A DNA stretch of 32,215 bases, taken from NCBI GenBank assembly GCA_028691975.1, contig JAQUYF010000018.1:1-32215 (forward strand), in the 5' to 3' direction. This document shows positions 15,481-23,071 of this stretch, in pieces. The notes below the pieces were generated by a model. The model saw nothing but the letters and a program-made list of their open reading frames with translations, was not told where the DNA came from and made no database searches. Numbering within the stretch: position 1 is the first letter of the stretch; each line of letters begins with the position of its first letter. The position numbers were made by a program, and so were the translations under genes. Source of the stretch: Bacteroidales bacterium (GTDB taxonomy: Bacteria; Bacteroidota; Bacteroidia; Bacteroidales; UBA932).

Positions 15481-16065
15481 ATGTTTATAGAAAGTGCAAA
15501 AAATCCGGGCTGGATCGAAGTAATATGCGGGTCCATGTTCTCCGGCAAGACAGAAGAGTTGATACGCAGGCTGAAGAGAGCAAAATTTGCCAATCAGCAT
15601 GTCGAAATATTCAAACCGAAAATTGATACACGCTATTCTGACGAAGAGGTCGTATCGCACGACTCGAATGCCATTCTCTCCACACCCGTTGAGTCTTCAG
15701 ACTGCATAATGCTTCTAAGCGGGGATGTGGATGTGGTCGGCATTGACGAAGCTCAGTTTTTCGACCAGGGCATCGTAGAGGTTGTACAGCACCTTGCCTC
15801 CAACGGAGTCCGCGTCATAGTCGCCGGTCTGGACACTGACTATTTGGGCAAACCTTTTGGGCCGATGCCCGCTTTAATGGCTGTAGCCGAATATGTTACA
15901 AAGGTTCATGCCATCTGTGTGAAGTGCGGAGATCTTGCCAACCATTCACACCGACTCTCTGCAAGCGACAAACTTGTCGAGTTGGGTGAAAAGGATATTT
16001 ACGAACCTCTCTGCAGACACTGTTTCGATAAGATCAGAAAGATTGAGCAGGAGAAAGAGGACTAA
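15481..16065 (+). CDS. tdk: Thymidine kinase (type II)
   Basis: The enzyme phosphorylates thymidine with ATP in pyrimidine salvage. The 194-residue protein has the P-loop GSMFSGKT (17-24), the catalytic DEAQFF (89-94, Glu90 as the base) and four zinc-binding cysteines in two pairs, Cys146/Cys149 and Cys178/Cys181. The flexible lasso region (about 154-174, [10 protein letters not shown]) closes over the thymidine. Length and motifs fit the tetrameric type II family. The stop overlaps the stop of the opposing M1 peptidase by 4 nt (16062-16065). Confidence 0.97.
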
Positions 16066-18392
16066 TCCACTTTTACCAGACGTACCTTATTTTTCAGCAT
16101 CACGCTGCATGATGATTCTTCAAGCCATTGATTAACAATGTCTTTAGCCTCCTGTGTTTTATGGGATGAAAGCAGAGCCGAAGCCCAGTTTTTCGGAAAG
16201 AAAATATCTCCTGTCCGCTGAACTTCTTCCATCAAATCAAGGCCCGGCTTGATGTATTTCACTGAGTGGGAACCATAAAGAGGATGATTGAGCAGCGCAA
16301 GAGCAGTAGAAGCCCATGGCTCAATCTCTCTGTTTTCCTGCTGAAGCAGGGCATTAAAAAATGCATCTCTCCCCACTGTGTCACTATCTACAGCCCGTAA
16401 GATAAAGTCAAATCTTGCAAGCCTGTCCGGATTGGAGATACGAGCCCTCTGAACAGATAAAATCTTCTCAACCTCAGACTGCTTCCTTACAGAAAGTTCA
16501 AAAGCAAGAGAAGTCAAGTCGTTTTCCGACAAATTAATAGACTTAAAAAGCTCCGGATGACAGAAAATATCGTAGAGACGTTGCGTAGTGCCGGGAGAGT
16601 CGCAATACGAGCAGATCAGATTGAAAACGGATCTTCTGCTCTGAATATCCTTAGCTGTCTCAAGCAACTGCCAGAGCTTTGCGTCCCAATCCCTGTACTC
16701 ACGTTCACCATAAAAATAGAGAAAGTATGTTCTGCCGAGATATGAGGCAGCATGAGAAAACGAAATCGGATCCTGTTCCCACGCGAGGTAATCGAAAAGC
16801 AAGTCTAAGTAAGTGGCAGGATTAAGACGTCCGTTAAGCACATTTTCGTTTACGTTGATTAGGATATATCCCTTCCGAGACTGTGTAGAGTGATAAATCT
16901 CTTCGTCCAGGCATCTCTTCGAAAGAGTAGAATCCATTACGTAATAGCCGTAGTAAAGAGTATCAAAGTCAGGCATCTCGCCATCCGACTCTATAATCGG
17001 AATACCGGAGGTAAATACCCACTTATGCGACCACTCTTTCAAATCATCGGCACAATAACCATCCAGAATATCTATCAACTCTTCCCATGTGGCATTTGAA
17101 TAGGCAAACTTGTCGAGATAATCACGAATCCCCTGCCGGAAAGCATCCTCACCGCACTTGTCAGCCAGCATATTCATTACTATCGGAGCTTTGTTGTAGA
17201 TTATATTGCTGTAAATCAGACCGGCATTGCTGAGATTATCCAAAGGTTGCTTGATGGGAGATGCCCCTGAAGTACGATCCTCGGCAAAAGCCGACCTTTG
17301 GTAATTGATAAAATTAACCGAATTGTCCACATCCGGAAATTTCTCTTCCATCATCTTGGCTGCGAAATAGTTGGCAAACACCTCCTTGGTCCATACGTCA
17401 TTGAACCACTTCATCGTCACATAGTCACCAAACCACATGTGGGCAGTCTCATGAGCTATCAGATTGTATCTGAACATCCGCTCGTTAATGCCTGCATTCA
17501 CGTCAAGAAACATCTTGCCGTCATTGTAAAGCGTAGCTCCCGTATGCTCCATGCCGCTATACTGAAATCCCGGAAGTATGATAAAGTCGTACTTTGCAAA
17601 CGGATATTCTATGCCGGTGTACTCCTCAAGCCAGGCCATGGACTCAAATACTTCCGAAAGGATCTCATCACACTGCGCGACCTTGATCGGGTCACTTTCA
17701 CGATGATAGAGGTGTATCGTCCGTCCATTGCAACTCTTTTCCACAGAGTCGAATTTTCCGACAACAAAAGAGAAGAGATATGTACTGAGAGGTTCACTCC
17801 GTTCAAACTGTATCAACTGCCTGTTTTCACGATGACTCACAGAGACAATCGGCGAATTGGAGACGGCACTCCACGACTTGGGAACAGACAAAGTCAGATG
17901 GTACCTCGCCTTGAGGTCAGGCTGGTCCATGCATGGAAATAAGGTTCTGGCACGATCAGGGACGAGCAGAGTGTACATAAATTCATCCATTCGGTTGAGA
18001 GAACGGTCACTGGATATGAAATTGACAATTACAGAGTTCAGTCCACTTTTTAAAGCACTTGCAGGTATGATAATATGCTCATTTTCAAACTCATAGTCAG
18101 CTTCACCGTCATTTACTCTCACAGTATTGACCGTACCCTCCTTGAAATCAAGCACGAGTGGAATGTCAGACTTTGGTCTGTAAATAAATGTGATGTTGAC
18201 ATCGCCGGCGACCTTCTCCTGTTTGCTGTCGGGAATTGCAAAGAAGAGATCATAGTTCAAATCCTCCACCATACTTTTTCTTGCAATTGCAAGAGCCTGA
18301 CTGACACCTGCTTCGGTTATATCTTTATAGAAACAACTGCACCCCTGAAGGAGCAGAAGCAGCAGTGAAACGGATGCGAGAACCCTTTTCAT
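16062..18392 (-). CDS. M1 family metallo-aminopeptidase, lipoprotein
   Basis: This 776-residue lipoprotein (lipobox LQGC, Cys18) is a gluzincin peptidase of family M1. The zinc site is HETAH (314-318) with third ligand Glu337 in [11 protein letters not shown], and the downstream motif order is typical. The substrate N-terminus motif, GxMEN in canonical members, reads GMEH (280-283). An N-terminal beta-saddle domain precedes the catalytic domain and a long helical C-terminal part follows. It probably acts in the periplasm or at the outer membrane on peptides. It begins only 14 nt after the group B hydrogenase stop, so it may be the last gene of that transcript, although a functional link is not obvious. 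Confidence 0.92.
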
Positions 18393-18406: not shown

Positions 18407-19846
18407 TTATAACTTTTGGTTCAACTCATAGAGTTTGACGGAATTGTCGATAGTCTTTTCTTTAGCCTCATTACCGTATTTGTCCACGTCAAACACATTC
18501 TTTGGACTGTGAGTGATACAGAGTGCCCCATTGACACAGCCACCCTCGCAGGCCATTCCCTCAAAGAAATTTTCTGCAGCCTTACCGAATTTGAGCCTGG
18601 TCAGAGCCATCTTGCACTCATCAATTCCATTCATTGCAATCGGGATTACCCCCTCAACCCCCATAGAGGCCGCAACGTCTGCTACACCTTTGGCAATACC
18701 GCCCGATTTGGCAAAAATACGGCCATAATATGATGCATTATCAAGCATACTGTCTTCCATCTGCGTGGTATCGATGCCGCGGGCATCAACGAAAGCCTGA
18801 AGCTCCTCAAATGACATCACGCTGTCGATTACATTATTGGTCTTGGCCAACCTGTATTCAAACTTCTTGGCACTGCAAGGCCCGATAAAGACTATGCGGG
18901 CATTCGGATCGGAGTGCCTTATCAGCAATGCCGTCTCAATCATAGGAGAGGGTGAAGAAGAGATATATTTCGCCAGATCAGGGAAGTTTTTCTCAATGTA
19001 CCTCACAAATGCAGGGCAGCAGGATGTGGTCATCAACTTCTTCTCGCTCCACTCCTTAGCCTCATGATAAAGTGTGATATCGGCACCGAGAGCAGCCTCA
19101 ACTACTTGATAGAAGCCCAACTTCTTGATAGCAGTCACTACCTGTGCAATTCTTCCGAACTTGCATTGACTTACAATAGCCGGAGCTATGATAGCATAGA
19201 CTTTATATTTTTTATTATTGTCGGAATTTTGGAGCAACGAGATAATATCCAGCACAAGAGACTTGTCCTGAATAGCTCCAAACGGACATTTATAGACGCA
19301 CGCACCGCAAGAGATACATTTGTCATTGTCAATCTTGGCTTTCTTGTTCTCATCGACAGAAAGAGCCTTTACTTTACAGCTCTGTACGCAAGGGCGATGC
19401 TGCGCAATAATGGCGGAATAAGGACAGGCCTGTGTACATTTTCCACACTCTATACATTTATCTTTGTCGATAACAGCCTTTTTGTTGATAATGGAAATTG
19501 CTCCCTTTGGACACACCTCCTTACAGTTGTGAACGATACATCCGCGGCAGGCAGGTGTCACATACATTCCTTCAACGGGACATTCGTCGCACGCTATATC
19601 AATCACCTCAATCACATTCGGGTTGTTTTTGTTGCCACCCATAGCCATCTTAATCCGCTCCTGCACAACAGCTCTCTCTTTATATATGCAGCAACGCAGC
19701 TCCGATTTAGGGCCGGGACTGATAATCTTGGGAATCTCCGTGTAAGCATCTTCGAGACCACCTTCGTACGCACGACGAATAATCTCTTTTAAAACTTTGT
19801 ACTTTAAGTACTGTACATTGGTATCAAATAACCTTGGTGTTTCCAT
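18407..19846 (-). CDS. [FeFe]-hydrogenase, group B (monomeric, ferredoxin-type)
   Basis: The 479-residue protein has an N-terminal Cys-bearing region (Cys52, Cys53, Cys86, Cys89), then ferredoxin-like [4Fe-4S] modules with cysteines at 100-112, 131-141, 153/157 and 177-187. The H-cluster domain begins near 215. Its three signatures are TTSCCPAF (273-280, Cys276 the proton-relay position and Cys277 a ligand), IGPCSAKKFE (321-330) and MACEGGCVNG (431-440). The TSCCPAF form (Phe rather than Trp) and the N-terminal layout match the group B hydrogenases of Clostridia and Bacteroidales, whose direction and electron partner are not firmly known. All catalytic cysteines are intact, so it should be a real hydrogenase. 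It starts 2 nt after the phosphatase stop. Maturases HydE, HydF and HydG are not in this window. Confidence 0.93.
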   Translation of the reverse strand: METPRLFDTNVQYLKYKVLKEIIRRAYEGGLEDAYTEIPKIISPGPKSELRCCIYKERAVVQERIKMAMGGNKNNPNVIEVIDIACDECPVEGMYVTPACRGCIVHNCKEVCPKGAISIINKKAVIDKDKCIECGKCTQACPYSAIIAQHRPCVQSCKVKALSVDENKKAKIDNDKCISCGACVYKCPFGAIQDKSLVLDIISLLQNSDNNKKYKVYAIIAPAIVSQCKFGRIAQVVTAIKKLGFYQVVEAALGADITLYHEAKEWSEKKLMTTSCCPAFVRYIEKNFPDLAKYISSSPSPMIETALLIRHSDPNARIVFIGPCSAKKFEYRLAKTNNVIDSVMSFEELQAFVDARGIDTTQMEDSMLDNASYYGRIFAKSGGIAKGVADVAASMGVEGVIPIAMNGIDECKMALTRLKFGKAAENFFEGMACEGGCVNGALCITHSPKNVFDVDKYGNEAKEKTIDNSVKLYELNQKL

Positions 19847-19848
19847 TT

Positions 19849-21009
19849 CTAATCGTAATTGAGGGTAACCTTTTTACCCATTATTTTTAAATTGTCCGCT
19901 AACTTTTCAACCAACTTCATCTTCATGGAAGTGTCAATAGGAAGCCCCTGATGTGCCACATTTATACTTCTTCCGACAAAAAACTGTACATGAGATGCCT
20001 CCTCGAAAAGTACATTTGCCAGCATAGAGGCCCCGTCAGTCTTGGAAAAACTCTTGGGAGTCAGGTCATGTACCGAAATATATTTCTCGGAAAGCTCAAG
20101 AAGTTTCCTCAAGGTAAGCACTCCCTCTGTAGTAAGATCTATCCCGTCGATAAAGCCGATCGGAGGTACATCCTTGTCCGGAAAGTCGAAACTCGTTTTA
20201 AGCGGTTTATTGAGATATCTGGCTACAATCTGAGAACTTGTCCCGCCGCAAACCACCTTTTTGCCCTCTCCTTCCATAAATCTGGCCACATAGAAGTTGT
20301 CCTGCTCATTATCCACAGGAGGGCCTACCATAATATTAACATCCAGCCTTTTACGAAATTTAACCGCAGCCACGGTAGTGTCATCTCCCGGCTTGTCCAG
20401 GTAGAGGTCATTGCAGGCTGAAGCCAAAATGCAGGCCACGCAGCGGGCCGACATATACGGCCTGATTGTCCTGTCAAGATGCTCCATAATCTCCGTACGT
20501 TGCCATCCGAAATTAAGAGTCATCCCTATTCCGGCATGAATGGTACCATCCGACATAACCAGCACGATATCACCCTCATCAAGGGATAAGTCGCTCTGAT
20601 ATACCTTTTTACCGCAAATATCCATCTCTTTGCGGATAAAATTCATACATTTTCCGCGATCGTAGTAAATAGCTTGAGGATTGTCAAATTCAAACAGATA
20701 ACCTTTCCCCTGATTATTAAGGTGAATCACTGAAAAGGTAGAATATGCAACTCCTCTCTCTTTGCAGACCGGCAAGGATTGAATTATCGTCTCAAGACAA
20801 TCCTCTATGCCGATATTGTTGGAAACCATGGTACAGAGAATCTTTGAAGTCAGCGTAGAGAGGATGTTGGCCTTTACTCCGCTGCCCAACCCATCTGCCA
20901 GCACCACAGTAGTGTATTCTCCCGACACACAGCACTCCACTTTATCACCGCACAATTCTTCCCCAAACTTATTCAGTGAAGTATAACCATATTCAAGACA
21001 CAGTTCCAT
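19849..21009 (-). CDS. SpoIIE/PP2C-type serine phosphatase with extra C-terminal module (hydrogenase-linked)
   Basis: The first 220 residues form a SpoIIE-like PP2C phosphatase. Metal-binding positions are visible: Asp39-Gly40 (VVLADGLGSG), Asp154 (VLVMSDGTIHAG) and Asp209-Asp210 (PGDDTTVA). There is no membrane segment and no sensor domain of its own. Residues 225-386 form a separate module (GPPVDNEQ, KVVCGGTSSQIVARYL, DKDVPPIGFIDGIDLTTEGVLTL) that I cannot assign to a named family. The gene overlaps the HydS stop by one base (TAATG) and precedes the group B hydrogenase by 2 nt, so it is tightly coupled to both. By analogy with SpoIIE and RsbU it should remove phosphate from a Ser/Thr on a regulatory protein, but no STAS or anti-sigma gene lies nearby. 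Confidence 0.9.
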   Translation of the reverse strand: MELCLEYGYTSLNKFGEELCGDKVECCVSGEYTTVVLADGLGSGVKANILSTLTSKILCTMVSNNIGIEDCLETIIQSLPVCKERGVAYSTFSVIHLNNQGKGYLFEFDNPQAIYYDRGKCMNFIRKEMDICGKKVYQSDLSLDEGDIVLVMSDGTIHAGIGMTLNFGWQRTEIMEHLDRTIRPYMSARCVACILASACNDLYLDKPGDDTTVAAVKFRKRLDVNIMVGPPVDNEQDNFYVARFMEGEGKKVVCGGTSSQIVARYLNKPLKTSFDFPDKDVPPIGFIDGIDLTTEGVLTLRKLLELSEKYISVHDLTPKSFSKTDGASMLANVLFEEASHVQFFVGRSINVAHQGLPIDTSMKMKLVEKLADNLKIMGKKVTLNYD

Positions 21010-22718
21010 TACTCATCCGTTTTATCTTCTTGCTGAAGTGTTTGTTTCAATTTCAAAAGTGCCACCTTCGTCTCGGCGGTCGTCTCTCCAAGCAACGAGG
21101 CTATCTCCTGCGCAACGCGCATTTGCTTCTTAATTACATCATCGGTAGTGGCAAGTGTTTCAAGTCTCATATCGTTGAGCTTGTCATTGTAGTTAACTAC
21201 ATCAGTCACATCTTTCATTATGCCGAAAAGGATCTTGTGATTTTTCATCAGTGTAATAGAGAGACTTACATACTTACCGGTGCGTTCAACAAGATTTTTG
21301 CTCTGCTCAATGGAACGCTGCTCGGTAAGGGCAATAATAAAGTCGGCAGGATTGAAATAATCAGAAGCGGGATGACCTTTTACATTATCATCCGTTATAC
21401 CGAGAAGATCTTTGGCTTTAGAGTTAATGTCAATGATACTCATATCCTGATCAAGGATAACCAAACCCTCGGGGCTGTTTTGAATCACTTCGTATGACAT
21501 AGACTCAGCCCTCTCCCTCATGTACGGAAGACATATCTCCAAGTCGGCATAGCCATTGATTACCGCCCATGCTTTTTGGCGGCATGTAGAATAGCCGCAG
21601 GCACCACAATTAAGCTCATCTTCAGGTAAATACTTGCCCGTCTCACGCAAAACGGCTTCAATCTGAGCATCAGTAGCGGGTACGCTCTTGTTTCTCAGGC
21701 GAGGATAACTGTGTGAAAAATCTATATCGTACGGCTTATACTCAACGGAATTATGCTCCTCAATATCTTTTCTTACGTACTTGCGTACATCGGCAATAGC
21801 TCTCACGCTGTTGCCCTTTGTAACAAGACTACAAGGCCCGTATACACACCCGTCCATACAGGAATTCATCTCCATAAACAAGCCTGACAGGGTTTCAATA
21901 TTTTCGAGAACTCTGGCACAATGCTCCGCTCCATCAACTGCAAGATACTCATATCCGGCAGGATAAGAGTCAAACGACTTGATAATACCGCGGCGAATCG
22001 GGAAATATTTGGCAAGGTTGGCGCACTCTCCGGTTTTGTCTATGTTTAAGTGCGTAATCTCATTTAATACTATATTTTTCTCTTCAAACCACTTGTCCAA
22101 CTCCTCAAAAGTCAGGACACCATCAATAAGCCCACTCTCGGCAGCCTCTCTTTTTTTGGCAATGCACGGCCCGAGAAAAATAATCCTGGCATCTGGATAT
22201 TGAGCTTTCAATATCTTTGCATGAGCGATCATAGGAGAATCCACAGGTGCAAGGTATTTGAGAGCCTTCGGAAAATACATCTGTATCATCCTGCAGATTG
22301 CAGGGCAGGCAGAGGTAATAAAATTGGTGTAGGTTCCCTGTTCCAGGAGCTTCTGATACTCATGAACTACCGCATTCGCACCGATGGCAGTCTCTTCTGC
22401 ATACGTAAACCCTAATTTACCTAAGGCAAGTCTGAAAATTGTAAAGTCCTGTACCATGAAACTTGAGACAAAGCTGGGAGCGACTGAAGCAATAACTTTT
22501 CCTCCCTCTGCAATAATCCTCTTCACTTCATCCAGTTCACTGTGGACGATCTTAGCATTCTGAGGACAAACGTTGGTACATTTTCCACACAAAATACATC
22601 TGTCCTGAATTATCTTGGCCTGATGTTCTTTAACATCAATAGCCTTGACAGGACACTCTCTCAAGCATTTGTAGCAATCCTTGCATCTTGCTTTTTTAAA
22701 ATCCAAATATTCCGGCAT
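21009..22718 (-). CDS. hydS: Putative sensory [FeFe]-hydrogenase with PAS domain (HydS, group C)
   Basis: The 569-residue cytoplasmic protein has two [4Fe-4S] motifs at the N-terminus (Cys12/15/18/22 and Cys41/44/47/51), then an H-cluster domain. Its signatures are diverged: TSACPA (135-140), with Ala137 where catalytic enzymes have the proton-relay cysteine, then LGPCIAKKRE (182-191), and MNSCMDGC (284-291) supplying Cys287 and Cys291. A CGACGYSTC motif (371-379, with Cys396) binds a further Fe-S cluster, followed by a PAS domain (about 405-510) and a helical tail (510-569) without kinase or output domain. This order is that of group C hydrogenases, thought to sense H2 rather than turn it over. 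The neighbouring phosphatase gene points to the phosphatase-linked C3 subgroup. Confidence 0.92.
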   Translation of the reverse strand: MPEYLDFKKARCKDCYKCLRECPVKAIDVKEHQAKIIQDRCILCGKCTNVCPQNAKIVHSELDEVKRIIAEGGKVIASVAPSFVSSFMVQDFTIFRLALGKLGFTYAEETAIGANAVVHEYQKLLEQGTYTNFITSACPAICRMIQMYFPKALKYLAPVDSPMIAHAKILKAQYPDARIIFLGPCIAKKREAAESGLIDGVLTFEELDKWFEEKNIVLNEITHLNIDKTGECANLAKYFPIRRGIIKSFDSYPAGYEYLAVDGAEHCARVLENIETLSGLFMEMNSCMDGCVYGPCSLVTKGNSVRAIADVRKYVRKDIEEHNSVEYKPYDIDFSHSYPRLRNKSVPATDAQIEAVLRETGKYLPEDELNCGACGYSTCRQKAWAVINGYADLEICLPYMRERAESMSYEVIQNSPEGLVILDQDMSIIDINSKAKDLLGITDDNVKGHPASDYFNPADFIIALTEQRSIEQSKNLVERTGKYVSLSITLMKNHKILFGIMKDVTDVVNYNDKLNDMRLETLATTDDVIKKQMRVAQEIASLLGETTAETKVALLKLKQTLQQEDKTDE

Positions 22719-22730
22719 GCCAACATACTA

Positions 22731-23012
22731 TTAGAGATTCAACAACGGATAGACCTCTTTTGCGAAAATTTCCTCAGCATTATCCTTATTGACATTGTGC
22801 AGGAAAAGCTCTCCATCGGGCATCTTCTCAACGTTTGGAGTATCTTCGACCTTTACGGTCACTCCCTGTGAGCAAAATCCGAGGCAAAAAGCTGCCTGAA
22901 GATCCACCAAATCCTCAACATCGTATTTCTTCAGGATATATTTCATCTGTTCAATAACATCGTATGAACCTTTCAAGTGGCATGAACTGCCGACACATAC
23001 TTTTATTACCAT
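22731..23012 (-). CDS. Thioredoxin-fold [2Fe-2S] ferredoxin (NuoE C-terminal-like)
   Basis: This 93-residue protein has the four-cysteine pattern of thioredoxin-like [2Fe-2S] ferredoxins: Cys6 and Cys11 (VCVGSSC), Cys43 and Cys47 (CLGFC). It corresponds to the cluster-binding half of NuoE/HydC subunits without other domains. ATG 23012 is chosen because it starts the first strand directly (MVIKVCVGSS); an extension to 23039 would overlap the promoter element. It is the first gene of the hydrogenase operon and precedes hydS by 12 nt, which suggests it passes electrons to or from one of the two hydrogenase-type proteins. Confidence 0.92.
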   Translation of the reverse strand: MVIKVCVGSSCHLKGSYDVIEQMKYILKKYDVEDLVDLQAAFCLGFCSQGVTVKVEDTPNVEKMPDGELFLHNVNKDNAEEIFAKEVYPLLNL

Positions 23013-23036: not shown

Positions 23037-23044
23037 CAAAAGTA
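23037..23044 (-). promoter_or_regulatory. Putative -7 element (TACTTTTG) for the hydrogenase operon
   Basis: The minus strand reads TACTTTTG, an exact TAnnTTTG match 24 nt upstream of the ferredoxin ATG. The palindrome at 23057-23071 lies where the -33 element would be. Confidence 0.6.
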
Positions 23045-23056
23045 CGGCTCTTTATT

Positions 23057-23071
23057 CGATTTAAAAAATCG
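23057..23071. promoter_or_regulatory. Perfect palindrome CGATTT-AAA-AAATCG, candidate operator in a divergent promoter
   Basis: Two perfect 6-bp arms are separated by three A residues. The site lies 12 nt upstream of the -7 element of the hydrogenase operon (minus) and 17 nt upstream of the -7 element of the M14 peptidase gene (plus), so it covers the expected -33 position of both. This placement suggests a dimeric regulator binding site. It is too far from any stop codon to act as a terminator and has no U-run for either neighbour. Confidence 0.5.

Follow-up and report, generated by a model that had tools for sequence, protein, structure and literature searches.

Gene sets that place a putatively sensory [FeFe]-hydrogenase beside a phosphatase are already described from Ruminococcus albus 7 and Thermoanaerobacterium, and HydDB defines its group C3 as a putative class of phosphatase-linked enzymes (serine/threonine phosphatase) whose role it gives as undetermined (PMC5037454). 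The operon considered here occupies positions 23012-18407 on the minus strand of a 32,215-nucleotide (nt) stretch of a Bacteroidales bacterium genome ("the window" denotes that whole stretch), and its frames read as an hfsABCD or hydS operon encoding a [2Fe-2S] protein (HfsA), the hydrogenase HydS (HfsB), a PP2C-type phosphatase (HfsC) and a group B hydrogenase (HfsD or HydA2). Judged from sequence, this is a clostridial-type hfsABCD operon, of a known kind, resident in a Bacteroidales-like genome, and its HydS, like the C3 enzymes, is linked to a Ser/Thr phosphatase. We consider it slightly better than an even bet that H2 signalling from HydS, through a conserved C-terminal tail, to HfsC is the best explanation of the operon.

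In R. albus, expression of an eight-gene cluster fell 111-fold in the presence of an H2-consuming partner, and H2 sensing, with the phosphatase possibly modifying downstream regulators, has been proposed (PMC6776011). A phosphatase search of the plasmids collection returned three records, including R. albus 7 plasmid pRUMAL01 (NC_014824.1), where the annotated order is Rex, adhE, phosphotransferase, two 2Fe-2S proteins, [Fe-Fe] hydrogenase, SpoIIE phosphatase and 4Fe-4S protein. This hydS-hydA2 cluster shares with the window the order 2Fe-2S protein, HydS, SpoIIE phosphatase and hydrogenase, at identities of 47% (38% for the other 2Fe-2S copy), 39% (573 columns), 45% and 54%, respectively, and R. 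albus HydS ends in a tail like that of the window HydS. R. albus HydA2 scores 577 bits against TIGR04105 (cut-off 450) and is labelled group A1 in PMC6776011. Unlike the window, R. albus 7 has two 2Fe-2S genes and carries Rex, adhE and the phosphotransferase upstream, three genes found neither in the window nor in its genome.

The Thermoanaerobacterium hfsABCD operon has the same four-gene order, with a PAS-bearing HfsB, a phosphatase-like HfsC and a ferredoxin-linked HfsD (PMC5707799, PMC11837493). Its host is a thermophilic clostridium with AdhE, which mutants tie to the operon; it is likened to the window by description only. Deletion of hfsA or hfsB in T. saccharolyticum raised ethanol and adhE transcripts, which the authors read as regulation, and deletion of hfsC, hfsD or the whole operon gave no ethanol rise (PMC5707799). 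Together with HydDB C3 and the R. albus cluster, this operon bears out the original prediction that the class is not new. The operon type and the outline of its mechanism are thus already published, and the mechanism is contested. Our literature searches for a phosphatase-linked group C3 FeFe-hydrogenase and for a sensory FeFe-hydrogenase with PAS and SpoIIE found no publication; both results are weak evidence of absence, the former because HydDB itself defines C3.

HydS and its C-terminal tail

HydS (569 amino acids; 21009..22718, minus strand) consists of a 2x[4Fe-4S] ferredoxin part, the H-cluster domain, a C-terminal [4Fe-4S] region, a PAS domain and a conserved tail, with family matches to PF02906, to the iron-sulfur (Fe-S) family PF04060 at residues 369-398 and to PAS_9 at 416-506. 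The C-terminal Fe-S motif, CX2CX4CX16C, precedes the PAS domain (spacing counted by eye; motif as in PMC8163306). All four H-cluster cysteines are intact. The L1-L3 motifs are TSAC, GPC and EMNSCMDGC, where the group A counterparts are TSCC, MPC and IMAC or VMAC, and the residues at CpI positions C299, M353 and M497 are A, G and N. C299 is reported to be lost in groups C and D, and T. maritima HydS to have G in place of M353 and S in place of M497 (PMC8163306). The three marks differ in worth: M497 is substituted in 94/96 HydS but in 0/85 rows of groups A and B.

In a tree of 49 H-domains, labelled by group according to best match and genomic neighbourhood, the window HydS falls outside the clade that unites all 13 group A rows (100/100); it was accordingly rejected as a group A enzyme, and the placement among group A that the original prediction had named as telling against it is not what the tree gives. 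The 16 group C rows do not come out as one group on the same tree, where they need two changes and are united in 30% of 200 bootstraps, and the C3 class of the window HydS rests on gene link, motifs and tree combined. By these marks, HydS is of group C3 type, phosphatase-linked and predicted to sense H2. The earlier reading of this gene as a group C [FeFe]-hydrogenase with a PAS domain agrees with its families, its phosphatase link, the tree and the comparison with the R. albus operon. The HydS family itself is heterogeneous: the proton-path position divides it into a cysteine type (52/96) and an alanine type (36/96), and a Treponema sp. HydS (L083:4592-6562, 656 amino acids) has an insertion of about 90 residues within its H-domain.

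The tail (residues 525-556; 21051..21146, minus strand) is a candidate output element towards the phosphatase. Among 80 Clostridia-type HydS, the mean share of the commonest residue is 0.85 in the tail, 0.78 in the C-terminal Fe-S motif, 0.60 in the H-domain and 0.52 in the PAS domain. When thirty-residue segments are compared across 96 HydS, residues 528-557 rank first of 540; when the comparison is confined to the 38 rows below 60% identity, the tail ranks second of 540, in practice equal to the C-terminal Fe-S motif (0.693 versus 0.694). A loose tail motif occurs within the last 80 residues of 96/96 HydS and of 0/89 other enzymes (72 group B, 13 group A and 4 group D), a contrast softened by the derivation of the motif from the same rows that were counted and by controls that hold no HydDB C1 or C2 HydS. 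The motif is also present in three HydS beyond the 96, from R. albus (inspected before the motif was defined), Monoglobus and Acetoanaerobium noterae. The tail is retained in A. noterae even though its HydS and phosphatase genes are separated by 0.88 Mb of a single record; neither of the two stretches examined (L142, L146) shows a further hfs gene. That record (NZ_CP154629.1, 2.6 Mb) is filed as a plasmid, while its size and genes are chromosome-like.

The original prediction described HydS as lacking an output domain, which overlooks this 30-residue element after the PAS domain, among the best conserved parts of the protein. Its conservation fits a docking or switching element for the phosphatase. 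In Bacillus RsbP-type PAS-coil-PP2C phosphatases, a PAS domain and helical linker are thought to switch a SpoIIE-type PP2C domain. The window genes resemble that arrangement, except that sensor, PAS domain and tail are on one protein and the phosphatase is on another, and that the input is an H-cluster domain.

The phosphatase and the constant core of the locus

HfsC (386 amino acids; 19849..21009, minus strand) matches PF07228 SpoIIE at 39.2 bits (cut-off 25). Its PP2C domain spans residues ~1-218, in which D22, D39, D154 and D210, which we take to be the metal-binding aspartates of the PP2C family, are invariant in 9 and in 38 HfsC sequences. The structural model is confident (predicted local distance difference test score (pLDDT) 88.2; predicted template-modelling score (pTM) 0.86), and a Foldseek search matches it to the PP2C fold of SpoIIE 5mqh (E 1.8e-14). 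The identification of a PP2C phosphatase made earlier is thereby confirmed.

The same prediction held that the phosphatase had no sensor domain, and this part needs revision: a conserved alpha/beta domain follows at residues ~219-386 (19852..20358, minus strand). Across 82 rows, its conservation equals that of the PP2C part (0.65 for both), and its GPP motif, CGGT loop and PP..G motif are invariant in the alignment. Although the model of this domain has a pLDDT of 86.7, Foldseek gave no Protein Data Bank match at E <= 0.001, and the window member has no Pfam match. The hints obtained are weak and disagree, pointing to methylglyoxal synthases (best Foldseek E 0.012) or phosphoheptose isomerase (profile search E 0.002). 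They suggest a phosphate-binding alpha/beta domain, as a lead only.

The pairing of HydS with this phosphatase is a constant trait of these loci. We compared the window with 80 named loci, the best 80 of 575 confirmed in a genome-collection scan, which come from Bacteroidota, Bacillota and one Treponema; loci from metagenome-assembled genomes may be chimeric. In 77/77 loci with enough upstream DNA, HydS immediately precedes the phosphatase, and HfsA is present in 76/77. Where enough downstream DNA is available, a group B hydrogenase follows the phosphatase in 56/64 loci; the remaining eight comprise four loci with HydABC genes, one with HfsD farther on and three with neither. The Bacteroidota loci, including the window, keep A-B-C in 18/18 and D in 14/16 with enough downstream DNA. 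This gene order is far beyond chance.

A second version of the locus is found in the window's own order, where 101 of 295 genomes have a phosphatase match. Besides the window's own, only two genomes there, both of one other family, exceed 37% identity to the window phosphatase (74 and 72%). From the 101 genomes, 20 hand-picked loci were fetched; two were of the window type, and the other 18 were detailed. Like the window, these have a tailed HydS, a PP2C phosphatase with the C-terminal domain and, in most, a 2Fe-2S protein; unlike the window, their phosphatases are at most 37% identical to its own. HydS adjoins the phosphatase in 16/18 (15 by script, L047 by inspection), hyd genes occur in 11/18 and a group B gene in 5/18. 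Because of these counts in both versions, the constant unit appears to be HydS plus phosphatase, usually with HfsA, alongside a catalytic hydrogenase that varies. One triad of the second version (L043, genome G233) sits between two hydABC-like clusters. Across the order, 43/295 genomes have a group B hydrogenase (42 above cut-off), and the phosphatase is present in 26 of these 43 versus 75 of the 252 others (Fisher p 0.0002, not corrected for relatedness); coordinates put phosphatase and group B gene within 5 kb in 21 of the 26.

The two remaining proteins also match their earlier descriptions. HfsA (93 amino acids; 22731..23012, minus strand), predicted as a small [2Fe-2S] protein, is an hfsA-like, thioredoxin-like ferredoxin by its profile match to PF01257 (2Fe-2S_thioredx, 29.4 bits, cut-off 24.8), with cysteines arranged CX4C ... 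CX3C by eye. HfsD (479 amino acids; 18407..19846, minus strand) scores 541 bits against TIGR04105 (monomeric [FeFe]-hydrogenase B1, cut-off 450), keeps TSCC (L1 TSCCP) and GMAC (L3), and has G at the M353 position. These features identify a group B [FeFe]-hydrogenase, as originally proposed, and H2 production is predicted; when group B enzymes from three species of Bacteroides were expressed, they produced H2 (PMC12578642).

Proposed working and alternatives

In the mechanism that we favor, H2 would bind at the H-cluster of HydS, and the resulting change would travel by way of the H-domain and the C-terminal Fe-S region, reaching the PAS domain and the helical tail; the tail may dock on or switch the co-encoded PP2C/SpoIIE phosphatase HfsC. 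HfsC would in turn dephosphorylate a putative Ser/Thr-phosphorylated regulator setting the expression or use of the ferredoxin hydrogenase HfsD, or elsewhere of HydABC and in many clostridia of AdhE. HfsA probably shuttles electrons to or from HydS. The signal path was called unproven in the original prediction and is so still. A tentative elaboration, which we would not put as high as even odds, is that the tail is the output element switching HfsC, the CGGT-loop domain of HfsC a metabolite-binding second input and the kinase discussed below the partner of AdhE. If this is true, HydS and HfsC would together make up a phosphatase module gated by both H2 and a metabolite, and this module would partner various catalytic hydrogenases.

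Several observations weigh against H2 signalling by HydS. The M353 substitution, present in 96/96 HydS, is likewise present in 72/72 group B rows, and the C299 position is still cysteine in 52/96 HydS and in R. albus HydS (SSCCHS, beyond the 96); neither change alone can therefore be taken as the mark of a sensor. The phosphatase occurs without adjacent HydS at L041, at L056 and in A. noterae. In the available parts of the HydS and hfs literature, we found no direct evidence for H2 binding, for tail-phosphatase contact or for a substrate. Furthermore, the Fe-S relay step is doubtful, since H2 failed to reduce the C-terminal cluster in a group D hydrogenase (PMC13104023). The hfsA deletion data are confounded by lowered expression of hfsB, hfsC and hfsD (PMC5707799), and hfsD by itself, with none of the other operon genes, suffices for high ethanol yield in T. 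thermosaccharolyticum, which the authors credit to hydrogen cycling and not to signalling (PMC11837493). Finally, a search for HydF (TIGR03918) in the window's genome, which is 87% complete, found no match above cut-off (HydE and HydG were not sought); the best match to the profile is a Der-like GTPase gene in the window itself. A missing contig is a likely reason, given the completeness of the genome, which has four PF02906 genes.

Alternatively, HydS may be a redox or electron-transfer hydrogenase and not an H2 sensor, with the phosphatase tuning electron flow and the mutant phenotypes arising from hydrogen cycling or electron balance. The retained Fe-S motifs and H-cluster cysteines would suit such a role, as would the proton-path cysteine of the 52 HydS noted above, the NuoE-like [2Fe-2S] character of HfsA and the sufficiency of hfsD for ethanol yield; the authors of PMC13277313 also consider HfsABC a possibly functional hydrogenase without HfsD. 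However, an enzyme of this kind would have no need of a PAS domain, a conserved tail or a constant phosphatase partner, the near-universal M497 substitution argues against it, and deletion of hfsB in T. saccharolyticum raised hydrogenase activity (PMC5707799). We regard electron transfer as an unlikely explanation, if the most serious of the alternatives.

HfsC could also antagonize the APH/RIO-like kinase (PF01636) found near hfs in many clostridia, such that H2 controls AdhE (or Rex) through reversible phosphorylation. This proposal draws on the R. albus 7 order Rex-adhE-phosphotransferase-2Fe2S-2Fe2S-hydS-PP2C-hydA2, on catalytic motifs conserved across 22 aligned kinase sequences, and on hfsA and hfsB mutants in which adhE expression leaves part of the enzyme-activity change unexplained (PMC5707799). 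The distribution of the kinase, sought with AdhE in 45 hand-chosen genomes of the 80 loci, argues otherwise. Outside Bacteroidota, it is present in 15/15 carriers with an HfsC of at least 54% identity to that of the window and in 5/13 further ones. No match came from the other eight, from any of the 17 named Bacteroidota carriers (a 22%-identity match in a 479-amino-acid frame of genome G304 was discounted) or from the genome of the window (best E 0.006). Among the 20 genomes with the kinase, it follows adhE on the same strand within 130 nt in 19, the twentieth being at a contig end, and lies on a different contig from hydS in 10.

Because it tracks adhE, half the time on other contigs than hydS, the kinase appears to be the partner of that AdhE type and not of HfsC; as it was not found in the 17 Bacteroidota carriers examined, HfsC would need another opponent, at least in Bacteroidota. 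Control of AdhE by this route is thus improbable, and the adhE-linked kinase is ruled out as the universal antagonist of HfsC by the 17 Bacteroidota carriers and the window's genome. The adhE-kinase pair is itself conserved in clostridia and a Treponema (e.g., L134:1522-4899), which may mean that this AdhE is phosphorylated.

The search of the window's genome also found no full AdhE (one partial match, 28% identical and with stops) and no Rex (PF06971), and a Rex-controlled operon was rejected for that 87%-complete genome. Neither Rex, AdhE nor the kinase is in the window, which thus has no rex-adhE-kinase-hydS cluster of the R. albus type. The original prediction had called the window's set a minimal form. 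Compared with the R. albus cluster this holds, but it does not hold generally, since only 21/60 loci with at least 6 kb of upstream DNA have AdhE or the kinase upstream, and two of these 21 have no more than a short iron-type alcohol dehydrogenase. Least probable of all is that the cassette in this genome is left over from a transfer and plays no regulatory part, a reading for which patchy distribution and the failure to find HydF, AdhE, Rex and kinase in the incomplete genome could be cited, against four intact and tightly spaced frames, conserved catalytic and ligand residues, the gene order kept in Bacteroidota loci and a hydABC cluster in the same genome.

How group C and D [FeFe]-hydrogenases relay an H2 signal is the question addressed here, and a 2026 paper on group D calls the identification of interaction partners critical (PMC13104023). 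For HydS, our comparison yields a candidate that can be mutated, the 30-residue tail, and a candidate partner, HfsC, and excludes a general partnership with the adhE-linked kinase. A switch of this kind would be expected to influence H2 output in gut and rumen, and hence methane and ethanol.

Transfer, operon layout and genome context

Trees of HfsC, HfsD and HydS (quick searches, midpoint-rooted) suggest that the operon has moved between distant hosts. As for the conservation counts, one row was used per locus, and rows with HfsC below 360, HydS below 520, HfsD below 430 or HydA below 540 amino acids were dropped. In the HfsC tree of 100 rows, the window belongs to a starred set of 34 (16 named Bacteroidota, 14 Bacillota, 1 Spirochaetota and 3 without group) nested in 82 rows, 61 of them Bacillota, and the second version from the window's order is distant. 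Nineteen Bacteroidota-side rows join at 82, not starred; the corresponding clades have 15 rows in the HfsD tree and 20 in the HydS tree, both at 99 and starred. Because the window groups with Bacteroidota inside a mostly clostridial set, far from its order's other version, the simplest reading would be that the operon passed once between Clostridia-like and Bacteroidales-like bacteria, in a direction that we infer.

The compact layout described originally was reproduced: the four genes run in A-B-C-D order on one strand with intergenic gaps of 12, -1 and 2 nt, hydS and hfsC overlapping by 1 nt, as in an hfsABCD or hydS operon. A promoter-like element, as reported originally, stands in front. 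It has the Bacteroidetes-type form TTTT-N20-TACTTTTG (23037..23068, minus strand) and ends 24 nt before hfsA. This is the sole match in the window, with 0.30 expected and at least one match in 25/100 shuffles, for a pattern based on the Bacteroidetes consensus and picked after inspecting the sequence. Scans of the window for sigma-70 promoters (16 matches versus 14.7 in shuffles) and terminators (6 versus 6.3) gave no excess.

Upstream of the operon lies a divergent M14 peptidase gene. Downstream, a fifth gene on the same strand, encoding an M1 peptidase (16062-18392), begins 14 nt after hfsD. A terminator-like site, from the scan that gave no excess over shuffles, lies just within the M1 gene (18361-18340), with none in the hfsD-M1 gap, and read-through into the peptidase gene is possible.

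Elsewhere in the genome is the hydABC cluster (HydA by search, B and C by eye), preceded on contig C100 (L037:8542-12281) by genes for a DRTGG protein, an RsbW-like HATPase, a group D-like HydS (444 amino acids), a small protein, a PHP protein (by eye) and another HATPase. These genes may form a second H2-sensing set. On contig C65 (L038:3366-6021), an RsbU-like SpoIIE phosphatase (778 amino acids) is encoded next to a STAS-like protein (by eye) and transporter genes, apparently a separate partner-switching system.

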